Source of the DNA: Blepharisma japonicum
Taxonomy: Eukaryota > Ciliophora > Heterotrichea > Heterotrichida > Blepharismidae
Assembly (NCBI GenBank): GCA_949751835.1
Contig: CATKHK010000075.1
Location: 1 to 64,000, forward strand
Direction of reading: 5' to 3'
DNA length: 64,000 nt
Positions within the stretch are counted from its first letter, which is position 1. Each line of letters starts with the position of its first letter. The translations under genes were made by a program, and so were the position numbers. Positions 287 to 53,000 of this stretch are shown piece after piece. The notes under the pieces were generated by a model that did no database searches, was not told where the DNA came from, and was given only the letters and a program-made list of their open reading frames with translations.

Positions 287-516
287 ATTGATATTTATTC
301 TATTTAAATTATTAGAAATGAAGCAGATGCGTAATAAAGCGAAGACTTATAACTTTATTAAATATTTAGCCGCAATCTTTAAATTAGCCTAGATAGTGAG
401 CATTAATAATGATCGACTCAAATAAATTGAATTTTACTTTGAAAACAACAAAAAATAAGTTAACAATCTATATGATATTATCGATCATCAATAAATAATT
501 CGAGGTGAAATATAAA

Positions 517-8507: not shown

Positions 8508-8970
8508 ATATAAAATTATTTTAAAAATAATTATAATTTGCTTCGTAAATATATTAGATGCAATTAATAGACGGCTGCATTTTTTTCATTTGAGACATAT
8601 TAGAAAAATCAGAAAATTCTAAGAAAATTAAAGATTCTATTTACTGATTGATGCTGGATTCTTGGAATAAAAAGATCCTGAACTCTTTCAAAATCAAGCT
8701 AAACTATAGTAGTATTTAAGTCGAGGCAAATATCAAAAGAAGATCTCTCTGCTCTTTCGCTATAATAAGTTTGATGCTAGAAATATTTCTTATTTTTATA
8801 CATTATTAAATTTTCTATTAGCAAAAATAAAGAAAAGATTTTATAAGCTCTATTCACAGCTACTCCCAAGTCTGTCTTTCAAAATTTAAGTATCCAAGTA
8901 ATAGACTTTCTGGGAAGTATGGACTGGCTTAACTATTCCAGATTTTTTTTTATTCTCATATAATATATAA
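8508..8970 (+). other. AT-rich intergenic region between kinase copies 3 and 4
   Basis: About 460 bp without a coding frame. The sequence is slightly less extreme in AT around 8700-8760, but no gene, repeat or RNA was recognised. Confidence 0.5.
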
Positions 8971-17148: not shown

Positions 17149-17753
17149 AGAAATAGAAAGTGATAGGACATTTGTTCAGCCCATCAGTCTCATATCAGGG
17201 GTTGTATAGCTCTATTAATAGAGATAAATTCAGCTTAAAGAGAATACTTTAGAATTTTAAATGTGAAAGATTAAAATATCTATATGCAAATTATATAGGG
17301 TACGCAAAATGTTGGATAGAATTTTTGCATTTTGATTAATTTTATAATTTCATTTGGAGACTACTTATTCTCATAATCTTCATTTTCAAATTGGAAGTTG
17401 CTAAGATATAATTAGTAAAAATGATAGATGCCACTTATAAATTTATGGCGAATAATACTTTATGAATGCTAGCTAACTAAAAACTATGAATATAATACTA
17501 TTTGCAATTAATTAAATATAATGCATATAAAGAAACGTTTAAATGTGTGAATGCTATATTAGCTTGCTTTACAATTATTGTTGTAAATCTCATTGGTAGT
17601 TAATTGCTCCTAATAAGATAGTATTTAGCAATTTTATACCATATTCAAAGTAATTTTTACTTAATATTTTTCTAGTTTAAAATTATCATAAAAACAGCAA
17701 TTTTCACTGACAAATTTTATCTAATTTCTGACAAGTTCTCTTATAATAGAAAG
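17149..17753 (+). other. AT-rich intergenic region upstream of kinase copy 5
   Basis: About 600 bp, strongly AT-rich, without coding frame or recognisable element. Probably contains the promoter of copy 5. Confidence 0.5.
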
Positions 17754-19886
17754 ATGGAAGCCTTGATAGAACTGTGATGGAAGAAAGAAATAAGTGACCT
17801 CTACGAGTTGCTGGTATTTTATAGCTATGCGCTCTTATCAATTGGCCTTTTATCTAGACTTTTATATTTGATGTTCAATTGGTCTGTTGACATGGAGCTT
17901 TTACAAGTCGAAGTTGTAGGACTACACTTCGTAAACATTTTTCTTATAAAAGTCTATAAGAATTCCTCATTGAAAGCCAAAATTCTTGTAATTTTATTTT
18001 TCACTGAGTCTTACAATTGTTTTTGCTTTTATGTGTCTATAATAAAAAGTGAAGACTCTAAAATATTGGCAGTTTTCGCTATAATGCTGACAACAAGATT
18101 TCAGTTGCCCATTATTAAAAACAAGCTTTTCTTCAACCTGTTTCTTACCAAAAATATATTGGTATGGTGCTTTATTCGAATGAATATCTTCCAAGATTCG
18201 CAGTTTAGAATAATGGAGATAAATTTTACATTAGGCACAATAATTACATGCAATATATGACATTACTATAGGATGAAGATATCTTTTGAGAGGTTCAACC
18301 TGAGCAAAGAACTGGAAAAAAGCCACGAAATATTGACATTTATAACAGAGGCTTTTCGAGATGGAATTATAGTACTTTCTGAGGATCAGACAATCGAGTT
18401 CAATAATAATAACTCTCTTAGGCTTCTGAATTGTGAAGAGCTAAATCTCTTGTCTTCTATATCACAACATGAATATCACCAAGAAAAGAAGTTGTCAGGG
18501 AATCCTACATCGAACTTTGTGATAGATGACATTATGTATTGTTTTAATGACACAGATTTCTCTGAGAAGACTTTAGGTATAAGTGTAGTGAATAACTGTA
18601 ATTTAGAGTGAAAAATCCAAAAAATCTCATGATATGATAAAAACAGCTTGTTTATAACTATCAGAGATGTAACTCAGATCATAAAACTCGAAAATTCAAT
18701 AGCAAGTGATAACATGAAAACGGTCTTATTGAGATCAGTTTCCCATGAACTTCGAACCCCTCTTAATGCCATCATATATTTTACTAACGACATTTTGGAA
18801 AAACAAAATTTAAGCATCTCAGGAGAAAGTGAAAAATTAAAAGCTATTTCAGTTTCTTCACAGCTTATGCTATCTCTTATCAATGATCTGCTAGATTTTT
18901 CGAAAATGCTAGCAGGAGTATTCAGCATTCATAAAACTAAGTGTCAACTAAAAGATATAATAAAAAATGCTTGCGAGCTTATTCAGATGCAATGCAAAAA
19001 GAAAAAGTTGAAGCTCATTATAAGACTCGATGAAAAGATTCCGGATAGGGTTTGCACCGATTCTTTGAGACTTAGTCAGATCTTACTTAATTTGCTTACA
19101 AACGCTTTGAAGTTCACTATGAAAGGCTGAATCGAAGTTATATGCCTGCTGGATAAAAGAAATCGTTTAAAAATTTCAATAGAGGATACAGGAATCGGGA
19201 TATCAGAAGATTATCAGAAAAAACTTTCTTCTGAGTTTACCTCATCAATTTCTCCATCTATAAGCCCCCAAGGATGTGGTCTTGGGCTTTATATCTCAAA
19301 TTCATTGGTAAAAAAACTTGGGAATAAGCCTATCAAAATCCGGTCTGAGCCTGGAAAAGGCTCAGCTTTTATATTCAAAATCAACATTTTCCCTAAAAAC
19401 AGCCCAAGCGATAAATACGACATTTTCGCAGAAAGTCTGCTTGAAGAAAATTTATTCAGATATGACATGAGTCAATACTCTATAAGAAGAAAAAATTATT
19501 CTCCTTCAGTTCTAATTGTTGATGATAACGAATTAAATCGGCTTGTCCTTGGATCAATTTTATTACAATATCATATAACATTCGATGAAGCTGGGGGTGG
19601 AAAAGATGCAATTAAAAAGGTCCTTGAAAGAAATAGGCTTGGGTGTGGATATCGAGTAGTTATTATGGATTGCGATATGCCAGAAATCAACGGCTTTGAA
19701 GCAACAAGAAAAATTAATGTATTATTTAACAATCGAGAAATTAATGAAATACCAAATATTATAGCTTATACAGCTTTTACATTAGATGAAGACCGTGCTG
19801 CATGCTTTGAGTGCGGGATGGTAGATTATTTAATAAAACCTTCCACCCCTGAAAAAATAATTAACATAATTAAAAAGTATTTATAA
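17754..19886 (+). CDS. Transmembrane hybrid histidine kinase, diverged copy 5
   Basis: A 710-residue relative of the array from ATG 17754 (MEALIELWWKKEISDLYELL; first Trp is TGA) to TAA 19884. Hydrophobic sensor (residues about 20-170), PAS-like region (AFRDGIIVLSEDQ), HisKA with His331 in SVSHELRTPLNAI, HATPase with LLNLLTNALKFT, DTGIGISE and GCGLGLY, and REC with VDDNELNR, Asp639 in MDCDMPEING and Lys in LIKPS. It diverges throughout from copies 1-4: the receiver has MDCDMPEI instead of MDGSMPEL and the sensor lacks the KHLxxWHY motif. Separated from the array by about 6.6 kb and several minus-strand genes. Intact and presumably active. Confidence 0.92.
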
Positions 19887-21024
19887 ATAGGCTTCATTTC
19901 ATTTGCTAATCACTCTAATATAAAGCTTCATTGCATTTTAACTAAAATAACTGCTGAATGAACCACCAAAATTTTATTACTTGAAAATTTTGCATAATAA
20001 GAATAAGCAGCAATGCATATAACTTTGCTATTAAAAACATTAATTTTTAAAATAATTCAGACAAAAGAATCATATAATAAATATGATTTAAGTAAAGACT
20101 TTAATAATTTTTCTAAAAGTAGATAATAAACTTTATTTAGATTATTAAATAAAAATTGTCTAATAAGCCTATTAATTAGGAAGAATGCATAAACCACGTT
20201 TACCATATTTAATGATAAAACTTTGAACTATAAATATGAATAGAATTCTCTCAAAATAAGGCACTTTATGCTTAATTAAGCAGCTAAATAAGCATGCAGA
20301 AATTTTATTTTAGAACCATTTTTTTATAATAGATAAAATAAAATTTATTAATTTACAAATTTCAATTAAAGATAAAAGGCTAATTTATTGAATAAAAAAA
20401 TTATGAATGACTTTAAGATAAAACCAGAGAAAAGGTAAAATAATCGTTTATCAGTTAATTCTTCATATAAAGCATAGAGAATATTTTTATTGCCACCACT
20501 TTTTAACACTTAAAAGTCATTATAATGTATTGAATTTTAACTTTAAAAGTCTCGAAAGTATTAAATTTTTCATTGAAACAAAAGTTAGAAATCTATCTAA
20601 TCCACTATGCAAATAAAAACCGTATTTAACTTATAAAAAATTTGTTGCCGAAATTGTTTCAACAAATTATTAAATTTTTGTTGCATATTTTTATAATGCT
20701 TCCAAGCAAAAATGCTAATTTTTACATCGTAGACCAGTATCTGTTTCAGTTCCTAGCGATATTTCAAATTATAATTTTAATTCTCAAAATATCAAAATAG
20801 CCAGCCTAATATTACAATTCTGGCACATAAACCTACTTATTCTTTGCTAAGATTTATAAAATAGAATTTATTTTAAAATTTCTTCCCTTATCAAAGCCAA
20901 AAATATTTCTAGATCCATAGTAAAATTTTGACGGCTCTCGCATTTTATTGCTAGCTTAATTTCGCTTAAATTTTTTCATATAGCTTTGTTGTAAAATTCA
21001 AACTAAAAGTAATGGTTTATAAAT
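19887..21024 (+). other. Long AT-rich intergenic region
   Basis: About 1.1 kb between kinase copy 5 and the giant receptor gene. Homopolymer-rich, no frame longer than background, no RNA or repeat recognised. Confidence 0.5.
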
Positions 21025-24000
21025 ATGTTCTTTATAGCTCTCGTAATTCAAGCTTTGTTCATATCGGTGAATGGAGTGTGAATTTCAGGCATCTCGATAG
21101 ATCCTTCAGTATTAAACCAAGGATACTTAGCAGGCTCAGTAGCAGGTGGAACAGTCCTTCATATTCGTGGAGGCTTTGACAACGAAGACCCAACCTCAAA
21201 TATAATTAACATTGATGGACAAGTTTGCGAAATTATCCAGTTCCACGCAAGAAGTGATTATTTACAGTGTATTACCCCACCCTCTAAACATCCAAACGGA
21301 GCGACAGTACTAATTACAGCCTCTTATCATGGAGAAAGCTTCAGTGCCGATAAATCTGTAACAATGCAGTTTACATATAACAAGTACAACACACCAGTCG
21401 TTTTTGAAATGAACCCAGTAGAAGCAGCTCCAGGCGACGAAGTAAGCTTTGTTGGGAGGTGGATGACAACTGCCTGGGATCAGTTTGACAATGCAAAAGT
21501 TGACACCCAAAACATGCTCATGTACACATTGGATACAAGCCAAACCTTTGGAAGTTGGGATGTCATGAACCTAACTGCTGTCTTAGGGGATAATGACCAA
21601 GGAGATATCAACGCCACTATTACACTTAATGGGGCTTATGGAAAAGCCTTCAAAAGATGGACTGGGACTCAATATGACTTAAATGGAAACCCTTACAATT
21701 TTCGAACTCTTGCAAGAATTGACTCAGTCTCAGCAAGTAGCGGAAGCTCAGCAGGCGGCCAAGAATTGATAATAAAAGGTGAAGGTTTTCCTTTAACAGC
21801 TTCATGGGTAAAAGTTGAAGTGGATGGGAGCAATTGCGAAATCTCTTCACTTGCTTTTGATACAATTAACTGCACTACAACTGCTGCTACTAGGACTGAC
21901 CCACAAACTATCTTTGAAGGTGGGGCAGGCTTAAAGAGACAAGTGTGGTATAATCAAACAACTACATCCTTGGACTTTACTAGCTTAAGCTCAGTTACTC
22001 CTGATTTCACCTTTAAAGTGGCTTCAGCCCAGATTCCAAGAGATGAAGATGTAAATATCAGAGATAAAATGACTGGGCTTTTTAGAGCTCCAGCTACAGG
22101 GACTTATAAGTTTTTCGTGTCTTCAGATGATTATGCTCAAGTGTTTCTAGGAACCTCTGATGACCCAACAACTGCAGTTTCTGTGCTTAAGTTTCAAAGT
22201 TATACTTCATTAAGAGATCAGTTTTCTAAAGCGTCTCAAAGTGACGGAATTTCCTTAGTTGAAAATACAGACTATTACTTTGAAGTGAGACACACCCAAG
22301 GGAGCGGATCCAGCCACTTAGATTTAGGAGTCTTAATTTCAGGGTCAACCCTGCCTAATACAATGCCATATGTCCAAAAACTGCAACTTACCCCTACAGA
22401 TCCAGTTTATGAAGTCCAAACACTTAAAATATTTGGGTCATCTACAGGCCCTACAGGTGGGAAGCTTCGTCTAGTGTATGGAACTACAGTAAGAGACTCA
22501 ATTGATTGGGATGCTACCTCCGGAATGTGGAAATGCAGTGACATCCTCAACCAAACCAGCTACTTAGGACTAGGAGGCTCTCTTTCATGTCTAGGCTCCT
22601 GGGACAGCACCAATACAGTATTGTCTTATACTATTACATTTAACTACTTGGTATCTGATAAGAGATACAAGTTCTCAGCTGACACCTCACTTATTGAGCC
22701 TAAAAACAGCATTTCTGTTACCAATACCAAATCTCCAGGTACAACTACATTAAAAGGAAGCTTCAAGCTTGGGTTTAGAGGTGCGCAGTCAGATTGGATC
22801 GATATTACCACTTGGGTTGACGGACTAGAATTTTACTTAAACAAGCAAATTGCTGAGTTCCAAAACCAATTAGTCGTTTACGGATCTGTTGGATTTCCTT
22901 TCAATACTCTTCTAGCTTTGCCTTGGTTCTTGTTTGATGGGACCAATTTCGATGGAATCACCGTTGTAGATACCAACTTTACTGGTGGAAATATAGAAGG
23001 GTCAACTGATCCTGCAAGCATTACAACTACTCTTGACCACGTTTATTTACCAACTGATGGCGCTTTTTGGCCAGTTATCCCATCAGACTTCTTAAGAACG
23101 ACTGAATCTTCTCCTCAAGTTAGAGTTTTTGTCAATGAAACAGTTTCAGTATGCAGAGGAGATTGCAGCTACACTTATTTGTCATCTCCAGATTTCCCAA
23201 AAATAACAAGCTTTACCAAATTATCATCTACTCTTACAATTGTAGGTCAAGATTTACCAACAGTTGCAACTCAGCTATCAGTTTCTGTAGGATTTTCTGC
23301 TTGCAAAGACATTGCTATCACTGATAATACTCAATTCTCCTGCACACTTCAAGATGGCGTTGCTGGAAGCTATCAGCCAGTAGTTAAAGTAGTAGGCAAA
23401 GGAATCATTCCAATAGACTCTTCAGTTACTAATACGATTGACTCTACTCCTACAATAACTTCAATATCTCCAACAGCCGGTAGTACCCAAGGTGGAACAA
23501 TAGTTACGATTACAGGTACTGGATTTTTTGACTCGTTAACTAATTCTGCTTATGAGCAAACTGTTACCATTGAAGGTGCCAACTGTGTTATAACTAGCAC
23601 TTCATTGACCCAAATTATATGTACTGCAGGTCAATCTGCCTCTGGGTCAGGTGTTGTTGTTACTGTTGGCGGACAATCATCAGATCCTTTTGCTTCTACT
23701 TTCTACGACTCAGGCAGCACTCCTACGGTGACATCTATAAGTCCAAGCTACGCAAGCACGACCTTCAAAACTGTTATCACCATTGGAGGAACTTCCTTTT
23801 CTACTACAATAAGTGACATTTCAGTCACAATTGGTGACCAAATCTGTATGGTGATAAGCTCAACTGCAACTCAAATTACCTGCGATTTATTAGGAGGTCC
23901 CCCAGGCACCTATGATATAGCAGTTACAGTTTCTCCTTATGGATTAGCTAATTTTGATTCAGTTTCTAGCAGATATGACCTCAAATTTGATGTAGAATCA

Positions 24001-27000
24001 ATCAGCCCTGCCTTAGGCTCTGTTGTTGGTGGAACCACAATTACCATTAGCGGCCACGGATTTTCAGATGTGTCAAGCTCTTTAATAATCATCATTGGAA
24101 ACCAAGATCACCAGTGTGGAAATTTAGTTGTGGTATCAGCAGAAATAATAACCTGCACAACTCCATCGTCAAGCGGTATGACTATTGGCACTGAATATGA
24201 TGTAACTGTAATTGGAAGAGTCCAGATGGAAAGCAGATGCAAAGGTACTTGCAAATTTGCATGGTCAGACACGGTAACTCCAAGTGTTGTTTCAATTTCT
24301 CCGAGCAGTGGAGCAAATGGAGATTCCATCACTTTGTCAGGCTCGATCCTTGGAACTGACCCAAGTAAAGTTCACTTGACATTTGGAGGAGTTGAAGCAA
24401 CCATTACTTCATGCACCGATACTACAATTGTGGCCACAGTCCCAGCTGTTAAAGGAGTCAAGCCAGCTTTGGCACTTACAATTGATGGCCAAGGACTTGC
24501 CGATACATCAGCACTTAGGTTCAGTAATAATATATTTGTTTCAGATGTCAATCCGAAGACTATTTCTCAAGGAGGAGAAGATATTACTATAACTGGTAGT
24601 GGCTTTGACACTGGAATGACCTTTGCTTTCGGCTCAGTTTCTTGTACAGTATCTCAAATTACTGATACTACAGCAAAATGCAAGGCAGGGGCTTATTCTG
24701 CATCTAGCACTGCTCAAAACCTCGTTATTTCTGGATCTAGCTCATCATATACATGCTCAGACAGTTCTAAATGTGCAATCACCTACTCTTCAGCATTCAC
24801 CCCTGTTCTTGGGTCTTCAACTTCTGGATTCTTAACAATTCCATTCACTGCCCCATCAGGAAGTGTAGTTCTGGACTCTTCAACTGTTCATGTATATCTT
24901 GGCAGCTACCCATGCACATTAACTTCTGTGTCAGCAAGCCAAATCTCTTGCACTCCTAATGCTCCAGCAGGAACTTATGCTATCAAAGTACACGTAGATG
25001 GATACGGATACTCAACAGGCACATTGAACGCTCAAATCACCCTTTCTATAACTAATGTAGTTGCTAGCCCATCCTCATATGAAGGTGGCCAAACTGTCAC
25101 CTTATCTGGTACTGGGCTGAGTGATAACTTAGGCGTCTATTTGTGTGGATTCCAATGCGCTCTTGAAACTGCAACTGGGGATACTTTGACATGTTTATCT
25201 CCTAAAGTAATTACTACCTACTCACAAAACACCTTCAATTTAGCCAATTCTCCAACCCAGCTCAGCAACTTTACAGTGATTTCTAGCACCGCAACAAATG
25301 CTGCTAATGCTTTTGATGGAAAGGCGGAAACCCATTATAGAGATATGACCAATACATTTGCATATGTCGGAGTTGATGCAGGAGAAGGACGCTATATTCA
25401 ACTTTCTCAGGTAACTTTGATTGGAGGAGGCGATAATAACTACTATTACAGCAACTTAGTAGGCACAGTTGTCCAAGGTTCTAATGATAACTCAAACTGG
25501 GACAATTTATACAACTTTACAACAGTTACTGACTATACCAACAAATGGAATGTCCCTGTAAATAGCCAGACTTCAGACAATTACCCTGTATACACCTACA
25601 GATATTACCGTCTCTATAAGCAATACGCAGGCAATAACTATTACATCAATGAAGTCTCTATATTCGGGTTCATTGGCCTTTCAGTGACTGATGTAGATGT
25701 TACTTGTGACTTAACGACCAGTTATCTTTCAACATCAGGAAGAATGCTTGCAGGTTCTTCCACTTCATATGCTTCAGCAATCCAATATCAGGGCTCAATC
25801 ACCCCATATATATCTGACTTTACACCAAAAGTTGGGACAAGTCTTGGAGGAGATGCCATCACATTTACTGGCTCATTTGGAGATTCAACAACACCGGCTG
25901 ATGTAACCATTCTCATTGATGAAGTCTCTTGCACTGTTACTTCCGTTTCTAGCACGCAAATTGTTTGTACGACTTCTGCAAGACCAAACTATGTCGCACC
26001 GTCTCTTTCTATTGCAATTGCTGGAGTTGGCTATGTTGTAACTCATGGTAAGACCTTCCTTTATGCAGAACGTTGGAGCGCATACTCAACTTGGGGTGGT
26101 GAAGTCCCTCCATTTGCAGGAGAAACAGTCCATATTCCTGTAGGTATGAACATTTTATTAGATGTAGCAACTCCTCATTTAGGACTGATCCTAGTTGAAG
26201 GAAGTCTCATAGTTGAAGATGTCGAAGGGCTTAGCATTGATGCAAACTACATTTTTGTGCAAGGAGGACGTTTGCAAATAGGTACAGAGGCAGAGCCATT
26301 CCAAAACAAATTCACTATAACTATCCATGGAGACAGGAGTTCCCCATTATTGCCATACTACGGCAGTCAGTTCATTGCTTTCAGAGGCGGAGTCTTAGAC
26401 ATTCATGGAGTTAAAAGAACCCCAACATGGACCTTTATAGATGGCACAATTGCTCCAGGCGACACAAAATTCAATGTTGCAGAAACAGTGGACTGGGTAG
26501 CTGGCGAAAAAATTGTAATCGCTTCTACATCTTATGACCATAATGAAGCTGAAATGATGACTATTGCTTCAGTTAGCGGAAATGAAATAACTGTGACTAC
26601 TCCTTTCGTTTATAAGCATTATGGTGTTATTGAAACCTATGGCAGCGATACCATGGATATGAGGGCTGAAGTTGGTTTATTGACCAGGAACATTTTGATT
26701 CAAGGAGGTCCTGAAGGCATTGCTCAAGAATGTGGTGTCCATGTCATGCTTTTTGCCCCTGGTGATGAGTCTTGCATTGGAAGAATTGAGTACGCAGAAT
26801 TCTATCATGCTGGCCAAGCTTATAGACTTGGAAGATATCCTATTCACTTCCATATGATTGGAAAAGTCAGCTTGTCTTATGTCAGAGGAAACTCAATCCA
26901 TCATACTTTTAATAGAGCAATTACAACCCATGGTGTCCACTATCAAACTCTTGAAAATAATGTTGTGTATAGAAATAAAGGGCATGCTTACTTTGTAGAA

Positions 27001-30000
27001 GACGGTATTGAGACTATGAACAAGTTCATCCATAACTTGGGTATTAGCACTATTGCATCATTTTCTCTGTTGAATACTGACCAAGAACCTGCTACTTTTT
27101 GGATCACCAATCCTAATAACATTTTCATAGGAAACCATGCTGCAGGTTCAGATAGGTTCGGATACTGGATTGAGCCACCTGAGCATCCTGGCGGGCCATC
27201 AGCTACCACCCTTATATGCCCTCCATTTATGCCTCTTGGAGAATTCAAAAACAACACTGCTCACTCTAATGGAAAATATGGCTTCAGAATTTGGCTTGGC
27301 CATGTGCCTCTTGCAAACCCTTGCTCTCCAGGTAGAGATAAATCTTTACGTGACCCATTCTCAGTGAACACCCCAATTACTGCTACCTATTATAACTATA
27401 CAGGCTGGAAAAATGAGCAAGACGGCGCAATCGCTGAAGACGTCGGAGATGTCAGATTTGTTGGCTTCAAAGTAGCAGACCACCACAAGAACGGTATGGA
27501 AATTTCATACTCTGAGTTCTCCACACCTTACCAAACTGCCAGAATCCATGACGCTTTGATTATCGGTAAGTCCGGAAACACTGAAGACGATGTTTCTGGC
27601 GCAATTGGGCTAACAACTCCACAGACAGATGGACTTTTAATTGAAAACGTCAGGTTCCATAACTTTGACGATGACATGTTCCCACTTGGAGACGAATCTC
27701 ACTCAGAAAATGTTCAGTCAAGGGATTGGGGTGGAGTCATGCACAAGTTTTCTGGACTATCATTTACTAACTCTAATAAGAGAATTTCTTGGAATGTCCC
27801 ATATAGAGGAATCTTCCACTTCCTTGATGATTCTTATAACGGTGTAGCTGGGTCTTATGTGACTGCTTATTGGCCTCATTTGATAACTCCTGAGTGTAAA
27901 CATGAGCCAGATCTATACAACGCCATTAATTGTGACTCAACTGTAGCTGTAAAAAGAGTACTTTTCTACAACCATGTTCCTAATGGCATTTTCTCATTCC
28001 AGAATTTGAATATAAGAAGAACATCAGGAGAAGAGCTTCCAACAGAAAACGTAGATGTCACTGTCGACGGGGTAACTTCGACTGTAACTCAGCCAACCTG
28101 GGGCAAACTACCAATGACAAAATCATGTCAGAAGAAAGACCCACTTAAAGGATGGGGTATCCCAGTTGTGACTGGCTATAACTATACACTGTTCTGGGGA
28201 AGAGGATTTCCACTAGACTGGACTGAACTTGATATCAGGATCGAACAATTTGATTATGACGAAGCTGACAAATGGGTGATAATAAGCATGAACTTTACAG
28301 ACCACCGTGAAATGTTCAATCTCACCCGTGGACACCTCCCATCATCTGTAGACACATCAGCTCCTGGCTTTGTGGATCCTACTAAAATGAAAAATACTAC
28401 TCACTTCAACGTAGCTACAGACACTTCAGGAACATTTTACTGGGACAACTCAACAGATAACAGAAGAATCGACATTCTTCTCAATGGAGTTAATGATCAC
28501 CAATACCAATATGGACCTATTCATGCAAAAGCTTGGAGATGTTATGGAGACCATTGCAGTACTCTCGCCACAACTGACGACAGTTTGAAAAACTTATCAG
28601 TAGTCTATTGGAGTGACCCTACTATTTGGCCAAACGGTGTGCTTCCAACAGCAGGCCAAAATGTTTTTGTCCTAAATACCTGGCATTTAATGCTAGATGT
28701 TGATACTCCAATTTTCCACTATGTTGAAATTAATGGTCTTCTTGAATTCGACAGAACTAAAAATGTATCATTGAGCTCTGAATGGATTTTCGTAAGAGGC
28801 GGAAAACTTGTGTCAGGAAGCGAAGAATACCCTATTCCACCTAACATTTTCCACACAATTACTCTTCATGGTCATCCAAATTCTGACGAATTCGCATTTT
28901 CAAACGATGTGGAAGGAGGCAATAAGGTCCTTGCCATTACTGGAGAAGTCCAAATGCATGGATATCCTAAGACTCCATACTCTTTCTTATCCCAAAATGC
29001 ATATCCAGGCGACTCATTTATCTTTGTCGATAGCGTTGATTGGAGTGTTGGTGACGAAATTGTGATTGCTCCTTCTGGATTTGATAATACAGAAGATGAG
29101 GTCTTTGTGATAACAGCCATAACTGGCGCTTCACCTCAGTACGTAATACCTGCGATGAACAGCACTAGGATGCTTATTGACTTTGCAACTGATCCTGACT
29201 GGAATAGAGTCAATAACCTAAGAAATGTAGGGAAAAATCCTAGCAGCACTGATCAAAGCTTGTCTCAGCAGTCTGTTCCAGGCTCTTCTACTGGCATTAC
29301 CAAGATTTCTCTAAATAGCACTCTTAAATACTACCATTCTGGAGTCCAAATGCTCATACAAGGAATCACTGTTGACACCAGAACTGAAGTCGGAGTTCTT
29401 TCCAGAAATGTGAAAATCCAAGGTGACGGCTACGTTGGTTGGGGCTGCACATCAATTGTAAGTGATTTCTATGATGTTTTAACCACCAGTGGTACCCCTG
29501 CCTACAGATATGGCAGAGTCAATCTGACAAACGTTGAGTTTTCTCAATGTGCCCAAGAAGACACCACTAAGGCTTCTCTACGATTTGAGCTTGGCGGAAA
29601 GATCCCATCACGAGTCCACAACTCAGTCTTCAGAGACTCTTATTCATACGCAGCCTTTATCCATCAAGCCAGTAACGTGGAGTTCTCAAACAACTTTATC
29701 TATAAGACTATTTGGAAAGGGGTTGTAGGCTCTGATATGAAAAATGTTACCATATCTAATAACGTACTCATAAAGACAGCAAACAGAGGATTCTTGAGCA
29801 ATGCATTAGACGTCCCTGCAGGATTCTTTATTTGTGGTGATAATCCTCTTTGTAGCAATGTTTCGACTATTGGAAATAGAGTAGTAGGATCTGATAGTGT
29901 TTCCTTTATTCTTGGAGGACAAAATTGTGACACTAATGTGGTTACCCATTACATTGCAGACAATGTGGCACATTCTTCGCTTTATGGCTATGTTATCAGT

Positions 30001-32133
30001 GGACAAAATGATGTTAAATGTGCAAGCGCAACTGGTCTAAAGGCTTGGTTCTGTGAGCAAGGTGTAGGCTCTCAAGGAGGATTAGTCAATAGATTCCAAT
30101 TTTCAGGACTTGTCCTTGTGGAAAATCAAATGGGTATTGCAATCAGAGGGCAGCATAATGATGACTTTGTGCCATATGTCAGCACGATAACTGATAGTTT
30201 AATTGTTGGAAGAACTCAACAGAGCTATTGTGATCCTTCAAATTGCACATCTGCAGACTGCGCGGATAGAAAAGGTATTGTAACAGGCGTTCATGATGTT
30301 AAGATTTTCGACCTTGAATATGACCAGAAAATGAAGCTTCCTCTTTATGATGCTAAAAAGCCAGAATGCGGCTATGGCCACTGGGAATACACAGGTACTA
30401 CCTTTGTTAACTTAGTAAAAACAGGATGTGGAAGAGATTATGCTATTGGCGGAAATGAAAAAGTTCCTAACTTGCCTCAGCCCAACTTGTTCTCAAAGTC
30501 AACATTCATCAACGTCGACAAAGGATCAATAGCTTATATGCCAGCACCTGATAAAAGCTTGATTGGTGTTGGCTTTTGTGGAAACTGGGTTTGCACAGGA
30601 GCTAATAACAACTTAGTCCAAGACATTGATGGCACCATTACAGGCGGCCCTATAGGAGGAGCAGTAATTCCTTTAGTTCCAGGCATCGCAAACATAAACA
30701 TATGTAAGCCATATACCCAAGGTCAGGTTTATATTTGTCCTTATGATACCGCATCAGGTGAAATCTATGAATATGTCATCATTGAGTCAATGGACGGCGA
30801 TAAATGGAACAGAACATTTTCACCATTGAACATCACCTCATTTGACGTCGGAAATGGCTTCGCATTCAAGAGCTACAACTACGGTGCTTTTAGAAATGAC
30901 TTGAACGAGTACGAAGATATGACTTGGGAAGGATTCTATAGAGACAACTTCCACTTAAGTAGATTTGGGTCAATCATTTATACAGGACAGTATTACAATT
31001 TGACAGCTACTGGAACCCCTCCAACTAAATTGTCAATTGTAACTGAGGCTTCTGTAGACCAATCGAGAGGATTTGTTATGGCACTTAGGTATGATAGTCC
31101 AGTCATTGTAGATGTGTATGTCAATGGTACAAAAGTAGAAGCAATTGAGTATGTAAGTGGCGAATCAACTCCAGTATGTCAGCTTTCTGACCCAACAGGA
31201 ACAAATAGATGGTTCCATGAAAATGCTACTATTCAATGGGTTCAAAAAGGCCACGCAAATGTAACATTGGTTCAAACAAGCTCAGTTAGATTAACTATGC
31301 AGCTAGATATGACACTTAAAGAGTTCTACAGCGATAACACCCGCGCTACCTTAATAGACAAGCTTGCATCAGTCCTTGGCATCCCATCCTACAGGATAAG
31401 AGTAGCAAGTGTCAAGCAAGGCTCAGTCATCCTCAACATGTTTATTAAGCCAGATGAAACCTTAGCTGGGCAAACAGACTCTACAGGTGCTAAAGCACAA
31501 GATAAAGAATTATCCAACGTTAACACATTAGTTAATTCTCTCGCATCTAGTGGGAAGCTTAGCCAAGCTCTTGGAAAGACTGTTTTAAGTATAGACTCCC
31601 AAACATCTATAGTCAATGCCACAGCAAGTGTCGCAGTAAATACTGGAGGAAGTGGAAACACTGGAGGTGGAAACACTGATGGAGGAAATACAGGCGGCGG
31701 AAATACTGGTGGAGATCCAGGCACTGGAGGTGGAAACACTGATAACGGAGGAGGATCGAATATTGTCTTTAAAGGCACTTTTAATGAAGCAGTCAGTGAT
31801 TGGGTTATTGGACTTCTTGTTGGAATTATTCTAGTAGTCATGGCAATTGGGTCAATTATTGCTTATGCATTTAGTAAGGGAAAGAGAATGATCCTTGCAG
31901 AGCCACCTTCTGCCAAAGTAGTCCCAATTTTAGAAGAAGTCGATGAGCAGCACGCAATTTCATTTGAATCTCCTAAGAAGCAAGCCTTTGAATTCGAAGC
32001 TGGAGATGTTGGAGACTTACATAGAATCTTTACAAAGGAGGAAGAAATAAAAGAAGTGGACCAAGGACAAGTAAGAACACTTGAAGCAGAGGAAAGAAAG
32101 GTTATTCGCCATGCATCCCTTGTGGATGTTTAG
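21025..32133 (+). CDS. Giant fibrocystin-L (PKHD1L1)-like type I membrane receptor
   Basis: A 3,702-residue protein from ATG 21025 (signal peptide MFFIALVIQALFISVNGVW, whose Trp is the only TGA seen in the gene) to TAG 32131. Order: IPT/TIG-like repeat; PA14 domain (about 325-452, GTYKFFVSSDDYAQVFLG); a run of IPT/TIG repeats from about 806 (PTITSISPTAGSTQGGT, then several SISPxxG repeats); a discoidin-like segment (about 1402-1556, NAANAFDGKAETHY); G8 domain (about 1682-1810, WSAYSTWGGEVPP); parallel beta-helix; second G8 (about 2526-2656, YWSDPTIWPNGVLP); beta-helix; Gly/Asn/Thr linker (about 3539-3579); one TM (about 3592-3616); and an acidic cytoplasmic tail of about 85 residues. The architecture matches animal fibrocystin-L and TMEM2 relatives. 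It is probably a large surface or ciliary receptor or adhesin. Intronless over 11 kb. Confidence 0.92.
31639..31760 (+). repeat. Gly/Asn/Thr-rich coding tandem repeat (juxtamembrane linker)
   Basis: Imperfect tandem copies of a GGxNTGGGNTxGG-type unit (nucleotide core GGAGGTGGAAACACTG) lie just outside the TM helix of the giant receptor. It should form a flexible stalk. Such repeats change length easily by slippage. Confidence 0.8.
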
Positions 32134-33035: not shown

Positions 33036-34673
33036 ATGCTTTCGTCACTATTCTCAAAGGTAGAGAGTCTTGCAGAGAACCATTTCTGGTCACCTCATGA
33101 AAAACAAGACTATGAAGATTTGGGGGAAATTGTATATCAAGGGACTTTGAGCAGGCAAAATCCCTCTGGCGGTCTCCGTCATGAGACTTATTATTTAACC
33201 AGTAAAAAGCTTATTTATTTCCAAAATTCTATTGGTCTCACAAAATACAGTAACTTGAGCTGAAAGATTATTGAGCCTTTCGTTGAGGAAGAAGCCTCAC
33301 GAAGATATGGGTTTTGTATTTCATATGGGAAAAAATGTAAATATTTTTACACTAAATCGTCTGACGAGCTAGATAAATGGCTCAACCATTTATCATTCTC
33401 CGCAATTATGACAGACATAGAAAATGATTATTTATTTCAAAAACAAATTGGAACAGGTAGCTTCGCAGCAGTTTATTTAGTGAAAGATTTAGACAGCAAA
33501 AAATCTTTTGCAGTAAAATCAATAAATAAGGCTGTGATTCAAAGAAATAAAAGAAATTTAGACCAAATTGTTAGAGAAATAGAAATAATGCGTCAAATTG
33601 ACCACCCAAATATTGCAAAGCTTTATAAAGTTTATGAAAGTGATACTCATGTCCATCTAGTTCTTGAATATGTTGCAGGAGGCACGCTTTTACAGAGACT
33701 CACAACAAAAGGACCATTTTCAGAAGAAAAATCAGCAAAATTCATAGAGAAATTTTTGAAGGTTTTGCGGTACCTTTGCCAAAAAAACATTGTACATAGA
33801 GATATTAAGCCAGAAAATATTTTAATGACAGATGATAATAAAGACACAAGCTTTAAACTAATTGATTTTGGGCTTGCATGTGCACCTAGCTGATAACCTG
33901 GAAAAAACTCTTATAACGATATTCTACAAAAATTATCAAAAATATGAATTAATGGTTGGCTAGTTAATAAGTCGATAAAGGGCATGAAGATAAATTTTCT
34001 CTATAAGGGAATTATATTTTATTTTAAAAATAAAATTATTTTACTAAAAAAAATTATAGTCGGTATTATACTAACCGCATGTGTATATACTGGAAGTTTA
34101 ACCTCTAGTTGTGGATCGCCAGGCTATGTTGCCCCAGAAATTTTAAGAAAAATTCCTTATGATCCGAAAGTCGATGTTTTTAGTGCTGGTATTATTTTGT
34201 ATATAATATTATCTGGAAGAGCTCCATTTTCAGCAGGATCTCCTAAAGAAACTTTGGTAAAAAATAGAGATTGCTTTATAACGTTTTCTGATAAATATTG
34301 GGGTAATGTCTCTAGACAAGCGATAAATATTGTTCTGAGGCTTACTCAACCTAATCCTTTATTAAGGCCTACTGCAAAAGAAGCCTTAGCTTATGAGTGG
34401 TTTAGATGGAAAAGTAACGAAAACATACTCTTAAAATCTTCACCTACAAGTTTTAGTGGTGTTTGGAGTAACCAACCAACAAATTCTTCACCTATAGATA
34501 TGACTAAAAAAGGACTTTCATCTAATAGAAGTGTCAGAATGTTCCCATTCCTGGGTGATAAAAATCGAATAAGTTTGAAAAAGTTGAATAATCCTAAACT
34601 CGCAAAAAAGATTTCATTGGATTTGAGAAGAGAAATTGAAACTCCAAAGATCAAAATAAAAATACACTCATAA
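33036..34673 (+). CDS. PH-domain serine/threonine protein kinase with an insertion in the activation segment
   Basis: From ATG 33036 to TAA 34671; TGA 33261 is Trp. Residues 1-125 look like a PH domain ([20 protein letters not shown] ... [10 protein letters not shown]). The kinase follows: Gly-loop [16 protein letters not shown] Lys, [10 protein letters not shown] catalytic loop, [38 protein letters not shown]. It is CAMK-group-like, and all catalytic residues are present. Between DFGLAC and SSCGSPG lies a 201-bp AT-rich insertion with an in-frame TAA at 33894. Removing 201 bp between its flanking direct repeats restores an activation loop of normal length, so the gene is likely functional if the insertion is excised. 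The C-terminal about 100 residues are basic and Ser-rich. PH domains usually target kinases to membrane phosphoinositides. Confidence 0.85.
33889..34089 (+). other. IES-like 201-bp insertion in the kinase gene
   Basis: Very AT-rich segment interrupting the kinase activation segment. Its ends carry an imperfect direct repeat, 33876-33888 (GCATGTGCACCTA) and 34077-34089 (GCATGTGTATATA), 10 of 13 positions identical, with a TA in register. Loss of one repeat plus the 201 bp keeps the frame and gives a normal DFG-to-APE segment. Paralogy is not needed for this inference because kinase spacing is well known. TA-bounded internal eliminated sequences are the known Blepharisma type. A 180-nt GT-AG intron (33880-34059) is formally possible but unlike the 15-nt introns elsewhere in the window. 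Confidence 0.55.
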
Positions 34674-44095: not shown

Positions 44096-47000
44096 ATGAT
44101 CAAAAATCCTTTTCCTCTCCAATTATCGCTGCTGTTATTGTTATTTCTCGTTTTAACCTTTCTCCCTTTGGTTAACTCATCTCTAGCAGCTTCTGATGTT
44201 GTTTTATCTTATGAGAATGGAGGAAGCACTTCTCAGCTTATGTCTCCAGAAACATGAACTATGTCCGCAGACACTTTGACTTATAGCTCAGGTGCTAGCT
44301 CAGAAACTTCGTCCTGCGGTAGCGTTACTAATACAGATTACACGAATGCTACACCTTTGAAAACACGAGTTCATAAAAACGGTGACTTTTCTTATTCATT
44401 AACAATAACTACTGGCGACTCCAATTATGTTTTGATTCTAGGATTTTGTGAAGATGGATCAGCTACAAGAAGATTTGATGTCAAATTGGCAGGAACTTCT
44501 ATTGCACCTTCAAATTTTGACCCAGGAAGTATGATTGGGATCTGCAAAGTATATGAAATTTATACTCTCTTTACTTTGACTAATTCAGGAACTAAAATTA
44601 CACTTAACAGCTCAACAATAAATCTCACTTCAACTAATGTCATTACGATTAGCCTTTTAAAAGGAAATGGGCAAGATCCAATAATCAATTACACCATTTT
44701 GGTTAAAGGTAATTGCTCAAAAGCAAACTATTGCTCAATGTGTAATGATCAACTATGCGCAACCTGCGACCCATCTACTAGACTCTGTTCAGCTTGTGTC
44801 TCTGGAACAACTGTAATAAATTCTAAATGCTCCTGTATTGCTCAATATTATTATAGCTCTGTAGCATCTGCATGTCAGCTTTGTGATCAGCTCTGCTCTA
44901 CTTGTGCTGGTGGAGGAGTCTTTGCTTGCACAACCTGCACTTCAGCCTCTTACTATTTAATCAATACTGTTTGCTTTTATGGTTGTCCTTATGGATATTC
45001 AGGATCTACTTGTGGTACAAGTCCAACAAGCTCAGTTATTAATGTGAGTTTTAACCAAGATTTTGCAGGGAGTTATGGAATTTTTAACACTGGCACAGGT
45101 TCTTCAACTTATCAGTTCTTTGTAACCCCTGATAGTGTTGATCCGATTCCTTCATATTTGCAAGGATTTTATTTTTCAAGTACAAGTCCTGGATATTACT
45201 TGGCTTCAAGCTCAACTCTTTGGTTTAGCCATACTTTTTCTATTGCCTTATGGGCTTATTCTATAACAACAACTACTAATGATTTAGTTGGAAAAGGGAC
45301 TTTAGGATCTTGCATACTAAGAATTCAAGGATCTGGAGCTATGACTTTGACTTTGCAAAGCCCATCATTGACTACAACATCAGTAACTTCGAACTCTTTG
45401 AGCATAACAACTGGTGTCTGGATTTTGTTTTCTTATACAGTTGCATACTCATCCTATTCCACCACTATTACTCCTTATAAAAACAACTTAGCTGTAACTG
45501 GCACAACAACCTCAGGATATGTTTATAGAGAATCAGCAGCCTCAACGCTTTATATCGGCCAAGGAAACAGCTACTTCAATGGGTTTATATACAATTTCAA
45601 GCTCTGGAATACAAATTATTCCCCTTTTACTACTGAATATACAGGCACCGAACTTTGTACCTCAGGTGGAAGTGCCTGCTTTGGAACTTGTACATTTGGC
45701 CAATACTATGACACAGCTAGCTCTCAATGTAAATCTTGTTCAAGCTGCAGTAAGGGATGCACTCGAGCAGTCTCTTGCAATATCTGCTATGATCCTTTAT
45801 GCTCAGTCTGTACAGGCTTTGGGTCTGGTAAATGTTCAACTTGTGTGACAAATGCGTCTAAAACATCTACAACCGACTGTGCCTGTAATAGCGGATATTA
45901 CTTATCAGATCCTTTTACATGTACTGCATGCTATACAGGATGTTCTTCATGTACAGGAACAAGCTATTATCAATGCACTGCATGTGTGTCAACTAAATAT
46001 TTCCTTTCTATTATGTGTTTAAGCTATTGTCCAACTGGATATACTCAAGATTCTGCAAATAATTTATGTACGCTCTCTACAACTAATGTGATTTCGGTCG
46101 CTTTGCAAGATTTGATTTATTTGGGGACTGTAAGTAGTTTTACGGTTGGATCACTAAGCACTAATGCATACCCAACTTTTGACGCTGGAAGTGATCCTAT
46201 CCCCTCGATTTATAGAGGATACTATTTTACTAGTGCTTATTATATGACTTATAGCTCTCTTATAATTACTCCTTATTTTACAGTAACGGTTTGGGTTAAA
46301 CCAATAAATTCAGGATACTTACTGCTAAAATTGGATGGCTCTTCAAATTCTATGTTTGCACTTTCATTTACTGCTTTAGGATATGCATCGCTTGCTTTGC
46401 GCCTTCAAGATGCTTCAACAGTCACTTCAACTGGGTTAGCAAGTGTGCTTGGAAGCTGGCATAATATTGCTTTTACTGGAGATATCTCTAGTGGTCAAAC
46501 AGTTATTAAATTGTATACAGATGGCAATTTAATTGGAGGTACTTCTACTGCGCTGTCAACAAATTTATCTCCATTCATAGACTCGTCATCTGGCACTCTA
46601 TATGTCGGCTCACAGTCAGGATCTAATGGATTTATAGGCTTTTTGTGAAGTTTTAAATTTTATAATGGAAATTCTAATCAGAATGCTGAGTGGTTTACAA
46701 GCGGCTGCAACTCGGCGTGCTCATCATGTCCATCAGAGAAAATCTGCCCTGACAGTTGTGCCTTTGGATATTTTTACTCAGGATCAGGATGCACTCAATG
46801 CGGAAGTGGATGTGGGAATTATGGATGTAGGAGTACTGATACTTGCAGGCTTTGCCAAACGAAAGAATGTCTTGTTTGCACTACATTTGATGGTACCTGC
46901 ACATCTTGTATAACAAATGCTTCTAAGACTGGTACAGCATGTGCTTGCGATGCTAATGCGTTTTGGAAAGCTTCGACTGCTACTTGCGAATTGTGCGATA

Positions 47001-50000
47001 ATAAATGTTCGACGTGTGCTGGAACTTATTACTTTTTATGCAATACGTGTTCGTCAGGAACGATTGTAGGTAATGTATGCTTGACTGGCTGCCCTCAAGG
47101 ATATACTACAGGCCCATGCACAAGTACAACATCGGCAATATTCCAAGTACCATTTGATAATTCATTTTCTGGAACATACTCAACATATTTCCAAACATCA
47201 AGCTCCTCAGCTACATATCAATTTTTCAACACTCCAGATACTTTAGATCCAGTACCTGCTTATAAAAGAGGCCTTTATTTTTCAGCAGGACAATATTTAA
47301 CTACCAATACCAATATCTTACTAAGTAATAATGTTTCAATGGGCCTTTGGATTTATGTGATTTCTTCTGGAGATATTTTTCAAAAATCACCTGGAATTAC
47401 ATTCAGTTCTTCAGGTGTTCTAACAGTCACCTTAGAAAATCCATCACTTACTACAAGCTCTCTTTCTACTATTGCTCTAACGGCTTTCTCTGGTTGAACT
47501 TATGTATCATTTTCGATTTCTTTTTCAAATGGAGACACTTCAATAGCGACTTACTTAAACGGAGCAGCAGGAAGCACTGCTAGCTCCGCAACTAATATTT
47601 ACAGAGATACTTCAAATGTTTTATATATCGGAAAAAGCACAAACAGCTACTTTACTGGCTTTATTTACTACTTTACCTTATGAAATGCAGCTATTACTAC
47701 TTTTACTTCAAGCTTATCAATTCCTTGCTCATCAAGTTCAAGTCCTTATACTTCTTGTCTTTGGTCTTGCCCAATAGGTCAATATTATACTACATCATGC
47801 ACAGCCTGTAGTGACGGGTCTGGAGGTAGCTGCTCATATGGATGTGTAAAAGCTTCATCTTGCAATATTTGCTATGATCCACTTTGTAAGACCTGTACAA
47901 GCTTTAATTCAGGAGATTGTACTCTTTGTGTTGATTATGCTACTGGTGGAGGGGCCACAGCTTGTTATTGCAATACTAATTACATATCCAGCGGATTTGC
48001 TTGTGTATGGGCTTGTACTACGGGATGTGCCGGATGTTCAGGGACTCTATATTATCAATGCACGTCATGTAATAGTGGTTATTTCTATTTAAATGGGCTT
48101 TGCTTATTAGCTTGCCCAACAGGCTATACAGCAAACCCAAGCCCATCTAATTCCTGTGTTCAATCATCTGCAACCATATATTCTCTAGCTCTTCAAGACA
48201 TTATTAAGCTCAGTTCTACAGACTCAAGCATAACAATTGGTTCTTCTAATTCCAATTCTTACCCTACATTTGAAACAGGTGATCCTATTCCTAGCATATA
48301 TAGAGGCTATTATTTTACTAGCACTTCAACAATTACTTTGAGCAGTGCTAAGCTATATTCATTTTATTCAATAACATTATGGGTTAGAGAAAAAGGGGAT
48401 GGAAAACTGCTATCTCAATCTGATGGGGCCACCCAGTTTATTAATATATCATTTTCATCAGGGAAAATTTCAATAATTCTCATCTTAGAAGACTCCTCAA
48501 CAGTCACTTTGGCCGATTCAACCACTACCTTTACTGGAAATTGGCATAATATTGCATTTGAAGGGAATTTAAATAGTGGCAAAACGAAAATTTCTTACTA
48601 TTTAGATGGATCCTTAGTCTCAACCCAAAGCTCTATAAATTCAAAGATGCTAATTGATACTGGCACTTTGTATATAGGGCAATACTCTGGAGGAGATGGC
48701 TTTGTAGGCTTTTTATGGAGCCTTAAAATTTTTAATGAAAATGGTCATTACCTTGATGAATGGATTACTTCTGGATGCCCAACAAGCTGCTCAACTGGAT
48801 GCCCTTCAGAAAAGCTCTGCCCAGACAGTTGTGAATTCGGGTACTATTATGATTCAACTTATTTGACTTGCAAACAATGCGATTCCTCACAAAACTGCGG
48901 AGGCAGTTATGGCTGTAGAAGTCTCTTAACTTGCCGCTTATGCAAAGCAAAAGAATGCTCAGCTTGCTCAGCATTTGACGGTGCCTGCTCTGGATGCATA
49001 ACAAACGCTTATATTCCTTCGGGGAATGATCAATGCCAATGCAACTTAAATGCTTTTTGGATCCAATCCACACAAACATGCGAAATATGTGATAGTCTCT
49101 GTGATGACTGCGCTGAAACTTATTACCACGAATGCAGTCAATGTAGTAGCTCAGCAGTTGCTGTTGGGACTGTATGTTTACATGAATGCCCTTATGGCTA
49201 TACATATTCATCTCCAACATGTACAATATCTACATCTTCTATTGTCGATCAGTCGTTTTATCAAGATTGGGGAGGGTCTTACGGCATTTTCCAGACATCT
49301 TCATCAGCAGCCTCATATTATTTTTCTGCTACTGTAGACACACAGGATCCTGTACCTGTTTATAACAGAGGGCTTTATTTTTCAGGTGGAAAATATTTGA
49401 TATCTACCACAAATATATACTTAGCTCACTACTTTTCTGTTGGGTTATGGGTATATGTGATTACTGCCGGAGATGTTTTCCAGAAAAATAGCCGAGTTAT
49501 ATTGAATTCTTCAGGATCAGCTACAATTGTATTGGAACAGCCTTTAACTACAAGCGCAACAGTTTCAGTAACTTCTGCAACGCTAAGCTTTAGCGGATGG
49601 GTTTATTTGTCCTTAACAGTTTCCTATTCACAAGGCACCACTTCTATCCAGACTCGTTATAATACAAATAATGGTGTGGCTTCATCCAGCACAAACAATA
49701 TATTTAGAGATGTGTCAAGTGATGTTATTTACATTGGAAAAAGTACCAGCTCTTCAACCTTTGCAGGATATGTATATTCAATTACTATGTGAAATACAGC
49801 CATCACTGATTTTACAACACAGCTTGCCTTAAGTACTTCATCTTTATGGTCTTGCAGCTACAGTCAGTACTATGATGGCTCCGCATGCCAAAGTTGTGGA
49901 GGGTCTTGTTCTCTTGGATGCAGAAGAGCTCTGTCTTGCAATTACTGTGATGATATTTTATGCAAAACTTGTTCTGGGTTTTCTTCAAATGAGTGTTCAC

Positions 50001-53000
50001 TATGTGTTGATAATGCAAGTGGTCCTGGGACAGGCTGCACTTGTAATGCAGGCTGGAAGCCATCTTCAGTAGGTGATACATGCATTAATGACTGCAAAAC
50101 TGGATGCACAAGCTGCACATCTTCTGCTTATTATAATTGTGATTCCTGCAGTACCGGGTATTATTTGATCTCCAATATGTGTTTTACTGCCTGTCCAACA
50201 GGTTATACAGCAGCTTCGAATGTTTGTACTTTAACCATTGATAGTGTGCTATCGTTATCCCTAGAGAATTTAATTTATTTAGATAGTGTAAGCTCAGTAC
50301 AAGTTGGCTCTTCAAGTTCTAATACATATCCTACCTGGGATTCAAGTGACCCAATTCCTTCTATTAGTCGTGGATATTATTTTACAAGCGGAAAATATAT
50401 GGATGCTGGAGCATTTATGCTGAGTCCGTTTTATACAGTTACTATATGGGTGAAACCTATTAGCTTAGGATATTTGCTGGTAAAATTAAATGGATCTACA
50501 GAAATGTTTGGAATTCACTTTGATTCAAATGGGTACCCAATAGCTGAAGCCACTTTAAATGATGGCTCAAGTGTTGCTTTAACAATTTCGTCATCATCAT
50601 TATTTAGCAGTTGGCATAATTTAGCTTATACAGGAGATATTGTAACTGGCTACACCACAATTTCTCTTTACTTGGATGGAGCTGCTACACCAACAACTCA
50701 AACTTCTGCTTCAGTCCAGCCATTTATTGACTCAGGATCACTATTATTTGGATACTCATCCTTTGCTGATAGTTTCGAAGGCTTTTTATGAAGTGTGAAA
50801 ATCTACAGTAAAAATACATATCAAGCTTCTGAATGGATAACATCAGGCTGCCCTTCATCCTGCAGCTCAGGCTGTCCTTCAGAGCAGCTTTGTCCTGATT
50901 CTTGCTCATTCGGACAATATTATGATAGTGGCTGTCAATCTTGCGATAGCACATTTTCATGCTCTTATGGATGTAGAAGTTGGGATACTTGCAGACTTTG
51001 TAAAGCAAAAGAATGCGACATTTGCACAACATTCACTGGGGATTGCACTCATTGTATAACTAATGCTGAACTTGTAACAGGAAATACTTGTGCTTGCAAA
51101 GATGTAGCTTTCTGGATTCATTCCTCTCAATCTTGCGAACTTTGTGATGGTCTTTGCTCAAAATGCTTAGGATCTTATTACTTTGAGTGTCAAACTTGTA
51201 TAACAGGAGCACAAAAAGTTGACAATATCTGTTTGCATGCTTGCCCTTATGGCTTTGATACAAGCTGCAATTACCCTACATCAAGCCAAGTAATAAACCA
51301 AGTGTTTGGAGATAATTTTAGAGGTCAATATGGAGAATTTATAACTGGGACAAGTGCAACTTCTTATCAGTTTTTCAATTCTCCTGAACTAAATATCGAC
51401 CCAACTCCAGCTAAAAATAGAGGACTTTACTTTACTAATGGCAGCTATCTTCAAGCAACTACAATATATCTTAATTATAAATTTTCTATAGGTTTCTGGG
51501 CTAATGTAAAGACTGCTGGAGATATGCTGGAAAAGCAGCAAAATTTGAGATTTAGCTCTGATGCGTCATCTATTGTTTATTTAGAAAATCCAAGCTTAGC
51601 AACAGCATCAGTTAGCACGTCAGCAATTACATATACAGCAGGATGGAATTATTTTGCTATAACCGCTTCATATACTCCTGGCTCTACAACTATTACTTGC
51701 TATGTTAACGCAGTTTCAAGTTCTCCAGCAACTACCACAAATAATCGTATATTTAGAGATGTCAGCTCTCAGCAAATTCTAATAGGTAAAAGCTCAGTAT
51801 CTTCAACATTTGAAGGTTTTATATACAATTTCAACTTGTGGACTAGTACAATAACTGATTTTAGCAACCAAATAAATAATGATATATGCAACACTGGGCA
51901 GGGCCATAGTTGCTTGTGGGATTGTTATATAGATAAATATCAAGATACCGATGGTACCTGTAAATCTTGCAATTCATGCTCTTTAGGCTGCACAAGGGGT
52001 GTCTCTTGCGGAATTTGTGATGATAAATTGTGCGACAAATGCTATGGGTTTGGAGCCAACCTTTGCTATAATTGCGTTACCCATGCGTCAGGTGCACCAG
52101 GAAGTGCTTGCTCATGTGATCCACAGTATTATTTAAATCCTGATGGCTTTTCCTGTTCTCCTTGCACAATGGGATGCAATACCTGCACCGGAAATAGTTA
52201 TTATCTATGCACATCTTGCATTAGCTTGTATTATTTGCTTTCAGGAATGTGCTTAGGATATTGTCCAACTGGCTATACAGCAGACAGTAGTGGCCATGTA
52301 TGCACTCTATCACAAAACCCTTCTCTTTCAGTGGTATTAAACAATGACATCCTACTAAATGTAGTTGATGGCATGGATGTAGGAAGTGACAATTCAAATA
52401 AATACCCTGCTTGAACTGATGCAAATGATCCAACACCAGCTATCCTAAGAGGTTATTATTTTTACGGCACACAGTCTTTGTCTAAATCTTCATTTCTTAT
52501 ATCCACACAATTTTCTGTCCTATTGTGGCTAAGACCAATTGCAGGAGGATATGTAGCTGCAAAATCAGATGGGACCAATGAATACTTCAAGCTCATTTTA
52601 GATGGGTCTGGGAATCCTAGCTTAGCTGTTTTAATGGCTGATGGCTCAACTGTTACCATAGCAGGGTCTTCAAGCTTAGTATTAAATAATTGGCATTTTC
52701 TTGCAATCACTGGAACATTGATATCAGGCCAGACACAGTTTGCTATGTATTTAGATAATGCCGGGACTACAAATATAGGAAGCTCTACTTCAGGTAGCAC
52801 TTATTTTAAAGATCAAGGAACTTTGTATATTGGGACAAATAACCTATTGGCTTCAGGATTTACTGGTTTTATATGGAGTTTTAAAGTGTATCTTGATAAT
52901 AGTAGCGTAAGCAATGAATGGCAAACCACATGCCCAACAGATTGTGTAAATTGCCCTTCAGAATTAATCTGCCCTAGCACCTGCCCCATCGGTCAATTTG

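Follow-up and report, generated by a model that had tools for sequence, protein, structure and literature searches.

A 201-bp noncoding insertion in the activation segment of a Blepharisma kinase gene, a candidate retained internal eliminated sequence

Introduction

How does a protein kinase gene come to carry 201 bp of noncoding DNA in the middle of its activation segment, and is that DNA normally removed? The question is raised by a gene at positions 33036-34673 (+) of the stretch analyzed here, which we call the window: 64,000 nucleotides of Blepharisma japonicum (contig C75:1-64000) from a genome assembly of 45.19 Mb in 224 contigs. Translated with TGA as Trp, the gene codes for a protein kinase preceded by a PH-like domain, and the block lies between the kinase DFG and APE motifs. 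An initial annotation had described the block as AT-rich, flanked by an imperfect direct repeat and similar to an internal eliminated sequence (IES), and had proposed that kinase activity depends on its excision.

IESs of Blepharisma stoltei offer a standard of comparison. The main text of PMC9942856 describes 39,799 of them, about 70% intragenic, with a median length of 255 bp and a GC content of 33.3% as a whole; they are mostly flanked by direct repeats, about three quarters are TA-bound, and terminal inverted repeats are common, although not universal. Incomplete IES excision is already established as a phenomenon. The same text portrays excision as a continuum in which partially retained IESs are hidden by assemblies, with residual retention of 0.02 or less in MAC-enriched DNA, and according to PMC3464196 excision in Paramecium falls short of 100% efficiency.

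Results

The block divides the kinase gene into two parts. The 5' half (33036..33896, +) encodes the PH-like domain and the kinase N-lobe through HRD and DFG, and terminates after 286 residues, with TGA read as Trp, at TAA 33894-33896. The 3' half (34077..34673, +), delimited by translation and by comparison with other genes, supplies the remaining activation segment, APE, the C-lobe, a tail and the stop codon. Pfam Pkinase matches the 5' half at 151.3 bits and positions 34062-34670 at 76.1 bits; PH reaches 23.6 bits on the 5' half, just under the cut-off of 25.1. The catalytic motifs are present and, judged by sequence similarity, the gene belongs to a family of PH-like plus protein-kinase genes within its own genome. 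With TGA as Trp, the TAA at 33894-33896, the eighth codon past DFG, is the single internal stop; under the standard code, the TGA immediately before it would stop translation sooner. The earlier claim that this TAA truncates the kinase before its C-lobe is confirmed by translation: the product with the block retained ends 7 residues past DFG and lacks the C-lobe.

To define the unoccupied site, we compared the gene with its relatives. Searches of the same genome returned 136 places with the 5' half and 150 with the 3' half. Pairing used the best 71 of the 136, together with the best 70 of the 150 plus one lower-ranking match whose partner was already listed; 65 of the 136 and 79 of the 150, all lower-ranking, lie outside it. 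Seventy of the 71 halves could be paired, the window gene itself among them, leaving 69 other genes. Relative to the window gene minus 201 bp, the excess was 0 bp in 62 of the 69, 3 bp in five and 6 bp in two, and none of these paired genes contains the block. Both unpaired halves are also block-free: a 5' half of another kinase type (L047, C6:301938) has a 28-residue segment, and a 3' half that reaches the contig end (L046, C75:228377) has one of 27 residues. The distance from DFG to APE was 25 residues in 18 of 20 distinct segments taken from fetched loci, 26 in one and 27 in another; the text pattern used for this count skipped L009, whose excess in the pairing is 0, and L047. Subtraction of exactly 201 bp from the window gene yields a 25-residue segment, so that precise removal does, on paper, keep the frame and leave a normal activation loop, as had been proposed. 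Because the block is found in 0 of 69 paired genes, and because exactly 201 bp restores the 25-residue loop, we consider this sequence comparison to confirm the insertion as real, beyond chance. A pattern for the unoccupied site had 0 matches in two other sets, one of genomic and one of viral contigs, a result that carries no information because ciliates are not expected in either. We place the block at 33876..34076 (+), with the proviso that both ends could shift by up to 13 bp rightwards.

The closest relative among the best-ranked matches listed, L007, is 66% identical over the 5' half. Against this gene, dN/dS was 0.151/1.29 for the N-lobe, 0.112/1.107 for the C-lobe and 0.290/0.977 for the PH part, and in the tail dS was saturated. 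In an alignment of 19 genes, we scored the columns that were at least 90% conserved among 17 outgroups: the window gene departs from 1 of 56 such columns in the 5' half and from 0 of 21 in the 3' half, and L007 from 3 of 56 and 0 of 21. Unique changes, window gene versus L007, number 17 versus 21 in the 5' half and 14 versus 6 in the 3' half, the latter a possible lean to relaxation that is not significant alone. Both halves look constrained, so the protein was maintained 5' and 3' of the block through most of its past, and the block should be either recent or removed.

The block itself resembles ordinary noncoding DNA. The coding sequence on either side has about 33% GC; the 22.8-22.9% of the block bears out the description as AT-rich and is typical of noncoding DNA in this genome (24.6%). 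Codon usage in the kinase frame scores -0.173 bits per codon, where the 1st percentile of coding windows is -0.04, and is therefore noncoding. Despite this codon usage, positions 33889-34076 contain 1 TAA/TAG in the kinase frame versus 5.7 expected (P = 0.011). At five candidate boundaries no terminal inverted repeat was found, with 6-8 of 25 positions matching and a longest run of 2-3, and the pairs listed by an inverted-repeat scan do not connect the block's two ends. A DNA-level search of the genome, in which very common words were skipped, returned the block region alone, and a repeated element was rejected on that basis; short AT-rich matches elsewhere were treated as low complexity, and copies confined to the germline could not show in such an assembly. 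We also discarded a known RNA element (no Rfam match within the window at gathering thresholds), a degenerate duplicate derived from the gene itself (aligned locally with each gene part, with L007 and with the intergenic stretch on the 5' side, the block scored no higher than shuffles, P 0.25-0.92) and a special single-stranded DNA fold (z = 0.48). One likeness, spotted post hoc and given no weight in our conclusions, concerns the 23 bp immediately inside the left end: positions 33889-33911 match the loop DNA of L007 in register at 14 of 23 (P = 0.0004 when L007 is taken alone, P = 0.013 when the best match among 18 loops is taken), but averaged over those loops the match is unremarkable (P = 0.13).

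At the edges of the block, the imperfect 13-bp direct repeat that had been reported is present. Its left copy (33876-33888, +; GCATGTGCACCTA) and right copy (34077-34089, +; GCATGTGTATATA) lie 201 bp apart and are identical at 10 of 13 positions, with a TA in register at 33887-33888 and 34088-34089. The exact part is GCATGTG, at 33876-33882 and 34077-34083. Once comparison with related genes has set the register at 201 bp, the chance of an exact run of at least 7 within 21 bp is P = 0.0037, or P = 0.0031 against random 3n offsets; when the register is left free, a 7-mer often recurs 150-300 bp further along (P = 0.28). In the fixed register, at least 10 of 13 matches at a given place has P = 0.0013, but past the 7-mer identity drops to 3 of 6 positions. 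Chance puts an in-register TA within 15 bp with P = 0.11, and this one sits 4 bp beyond the exact 7-mer, there being none inside GCATGTG. A repeat scan listed no direct repeat of at least 8 bp around the block. The reliable repeat is the 7 bp of GCATGTG, to which the weak 10/13 extension and in-register TA add little. The repeat supports an insertion with a short duplication or a terminal direct repeat, and is not a mark specific to IESs.

The same comparison bears on the exact junction. With a cut at GCATGTG, positions 7-8 of the loop would read VY, and with a cut at TA they would read AP; L007 has VV there. The 18 loops lean to VY (mean BLOSUM62 90.1 versus 88.5 for AP), and since this preference is slight, the loop comparison does not decide between the two junctions. 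Another TA-to-TA removal, of 192 bp, would give a near-normal loop with 28 residues left. The boundaries given here were drawn independently of a MAFFT DNA alignment to L007, which misplaced the gap.

What the block means depends on the kind of genome that was assembled. Three tandem copies of CCCTAACA occur in 168 matches, overlaps counted, and among the first 100 matches listed, those at contig starts or on contigs of known length fall no more than about 500 bp from a contig end. When 20 kinase genes, the window gene plus 19 more, were aligned in pairs, TGA codons faced TGG in 196 cells and another TGA in 82, Phe being next with 20. A frame-bridging scan for introns of 10-60 nt in the window plus 200 kb found 10 GT..AG candidates at 15 nt, some of which may not be real introns, and 0-4 at each other length; three control signals gave 0, 0 and 1 at 15 nt, and one control reached 11 at 52 nt. 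A scan of GTA..TAG spacing showed no intron peak, whereas the frame-bridging scan did. For PF13843, the PiggyBac-type transposase family, there are 12 matches, of which three are close to full length and free of TAA/TAG. Other PiggyBac-type matches, at C112:107992-108915, C214:4909-5954, C5:276928-277562 and C9:271572-272170, are fragmented or contain internal TAA/TAG.

According to the main text of PMC9942806, the macronuclear genome of B. stoltei comprises 41 Mbp in 64 telomere-to-telomere sequences with CCCTAACA telomeres, reads UGA as Trp, has introns predominantly of 15 and 16 bp and encodes eight PiggyBac homologs. By its telomeres, UGA as Trp, 15-nt intron peak and PiggyBac homologs, our assembly looks like a Blepharisma-like macronuclear one, although at 45.19 Mb in 224 contigs it differs from that published set. 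The window contains uninterrupted frames of 3706 and 4801 codons, which disfavor a germline assembly, since the latter should carry about one IES per kilobase by our own division of counts in the main text of PMC9942856.

Discussion

Our preferred explanation, to which we assign a probability of about one half, is that the block is an IES-type insertion that entered the assembly through incomplete excision or through germline reads. Noncoding DNA would have entered the germline copy of the kinase gene at GCATGTG and would normally be cut out as the somatic nucleus develops; its occurrence in a macronuclear-looking assembly would then reflect incomplete excision or germline reads in the consensus. 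A gene with the block would yield the 286-residue product alone, and one without it a normal-looking kinase with a 25-residue loop. The germline origin, the excision and the reason for the block's presence in the assembly are steps that we infer. In favor of this explanation are the empty site in 69 of 69 paired genes, the 25-residue loop and coding sequence that precise removal would restore, the constraint on both halves, the exact 7-bp flanking repeat (P = 0.0037), the Blepharisma-like macronuclear traits and, as candidate excisases, the PiggyBac homologs in the genome. The block also resembles the B. stoltei IESs described in the main text of PMC9942856 as a short noncoding block within coding sequence, flanked by a direct repeat, whose removal restores a gene in a genome with PiggyBac homologs. 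It differs from them in that its exact repeat lacks a TA, no terminal inverted repeat is seen at the five candidate boundaries, its GC content is lower (22.8% versus 33.3%) and it is present in the assembly. That presence counts against germline limitation unless the block was retained, and here the block is the consensus, versus a retention of 0.02 or less in B. stoltei; the lack of a second copy in the assembly, where copies confined to the germline would be missing, is a further point against. The initial proposal of an IES-like insertion is partly supported. The exact length, the empty site in the 69 paired genes and the improbability of an intron speak for it, and the type of organism (a ciliate), the length (B. 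stoltei median 255 bp, main text of PMC9942856) and the flanking direct repeat are consistent with an IES; the 13-bp extension and its TA are weak, and what is left is an above-chance repeat that lacks a TA, with no terminal inverted repeat.

A serious contender, though a less probable one, is a plain insertion that never undergoes excision: it would have disrupted this copy recently, in both the germline and the soma, and left a truncated or dead gene. It accounts directly for a block that sits in the consensus of a macronuclear-looking assembly and for the weakness of the IES hallmarks, and the 14 versus 6 unique changes in the 3' half (17 versus 21 in the 5' half) point slightly, without significance, to relaxed constraint. 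Such a break is harder to reconcile with low dN/dS in both lobes and with conserved columns that stay intact in the two halves (departures in 1 of 56 and in 0 of 21). The imperfection of the 13-bp repeat would also speak for an old event if the whole 13 bp were a target duplication, but the extension may be chance.

Removal from RNA rather than DNA seems improbable. A spliceosomal intron of 180 nt at 33880..34059 (+), found by enumeration of GT..AG pairs, would keep the frame and remove the stop, and a TACTAA-like motif and an A-rich stretch precede its TATAG. It would, however, leave a 32-residue loop, with 7 extra residues relative to the 25 of 18 of 20 segments, and it is twelve times the length of the 15-nt peak of candidate introns in the 10-60 nt scan, where introns in B. 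stoltei are predominantly 15 and 16 bp (main text of PMC9942806); nothing, moreover, lies between the halves of the 69 paired genes. Like those tiny introns, the block interrupts coding sequence and offers a frame-keeping GT..AG; it differs from them in length and in the 7 extra residues left. Within the range scanned, the stop-free, frame-keeping GT..AG choices are that of 180 nt and one of 243 nt, which would leave 11 residues and delete most of the loop, and none gives the usual 25. Because the sole choice that spares the loop leaves 32 residues, an insertion is better supported than an intron, and DNA excision fits better than RNA splicing. Still less credible is a coding insertion, with about 67 extra loop residues and a TAA explained by readthrough or by sequence error: the length is divisible by 3 and the kinase frame has fewer TAA/TAG than expected (1 versus 5.7), but the codon usage, at -0.173 bits per codon versus a 1st percentile of -0.04, is noncoding, and the 69 paired genes hold nothing similar. 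The rest of the probability falls to causes beyond these four readings, such as misassembly.

The proposed dependence of kinase activity on excision is speculative and follows just trivially, as a protein stopping past DFG would have no C-lobe. A DNA-level switch, in which normal cells would contain block-bearing and block-free somatic copies side by side and excision, varying with each sexual cycle, would set kinase dose through their ratio, strikes us as very unlikely. A parallel is offered by retained IESs, as in Paramecium (PMC3464196), where a retained intragenic block would likewise truncate a protein; the present case is known from an assembly consensus. In the texts consulted, supplementary files aside, no such insertion is named in this kinase gene. 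A retained IES here would provide a well-delimited heterotrich example, with an empty site defined by about 70 related genes, and read counts at one junction would gauge the excision fidelity of an intragenic element. Otherwise, the gene is one broken copy within a large family. We regard the insertion, which affects a single gene of a large kinase family, as confirmed and neatly delimited; it most likely belongs to a known kind, and the finding is tidy but ordinary.

Other features of the window

The window also contains a cluster of hybrid histidine kinases, at 499-11133 and 17676-19883. Four intact frames (499-2676, 6321-8504, 8971-11133 and 17676-19883), 36-55% identical to one another, encode their HisKA, HATPase_c and response-regulator domains. 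A fifth histidine-kinase relative, at 3404-5559, changes frame near 4735-4738, where there is no intron-sized gap; it may be a broken copy, a sequence error or a frameshift. The 3706-codon open frame lies at 21013-32133 and has 41% GC along most of its length. Farther along, a 15-nt intron candidate at 58487-58501 links the 4801-codon open frame to the 245 codons that follow (44096-59239).
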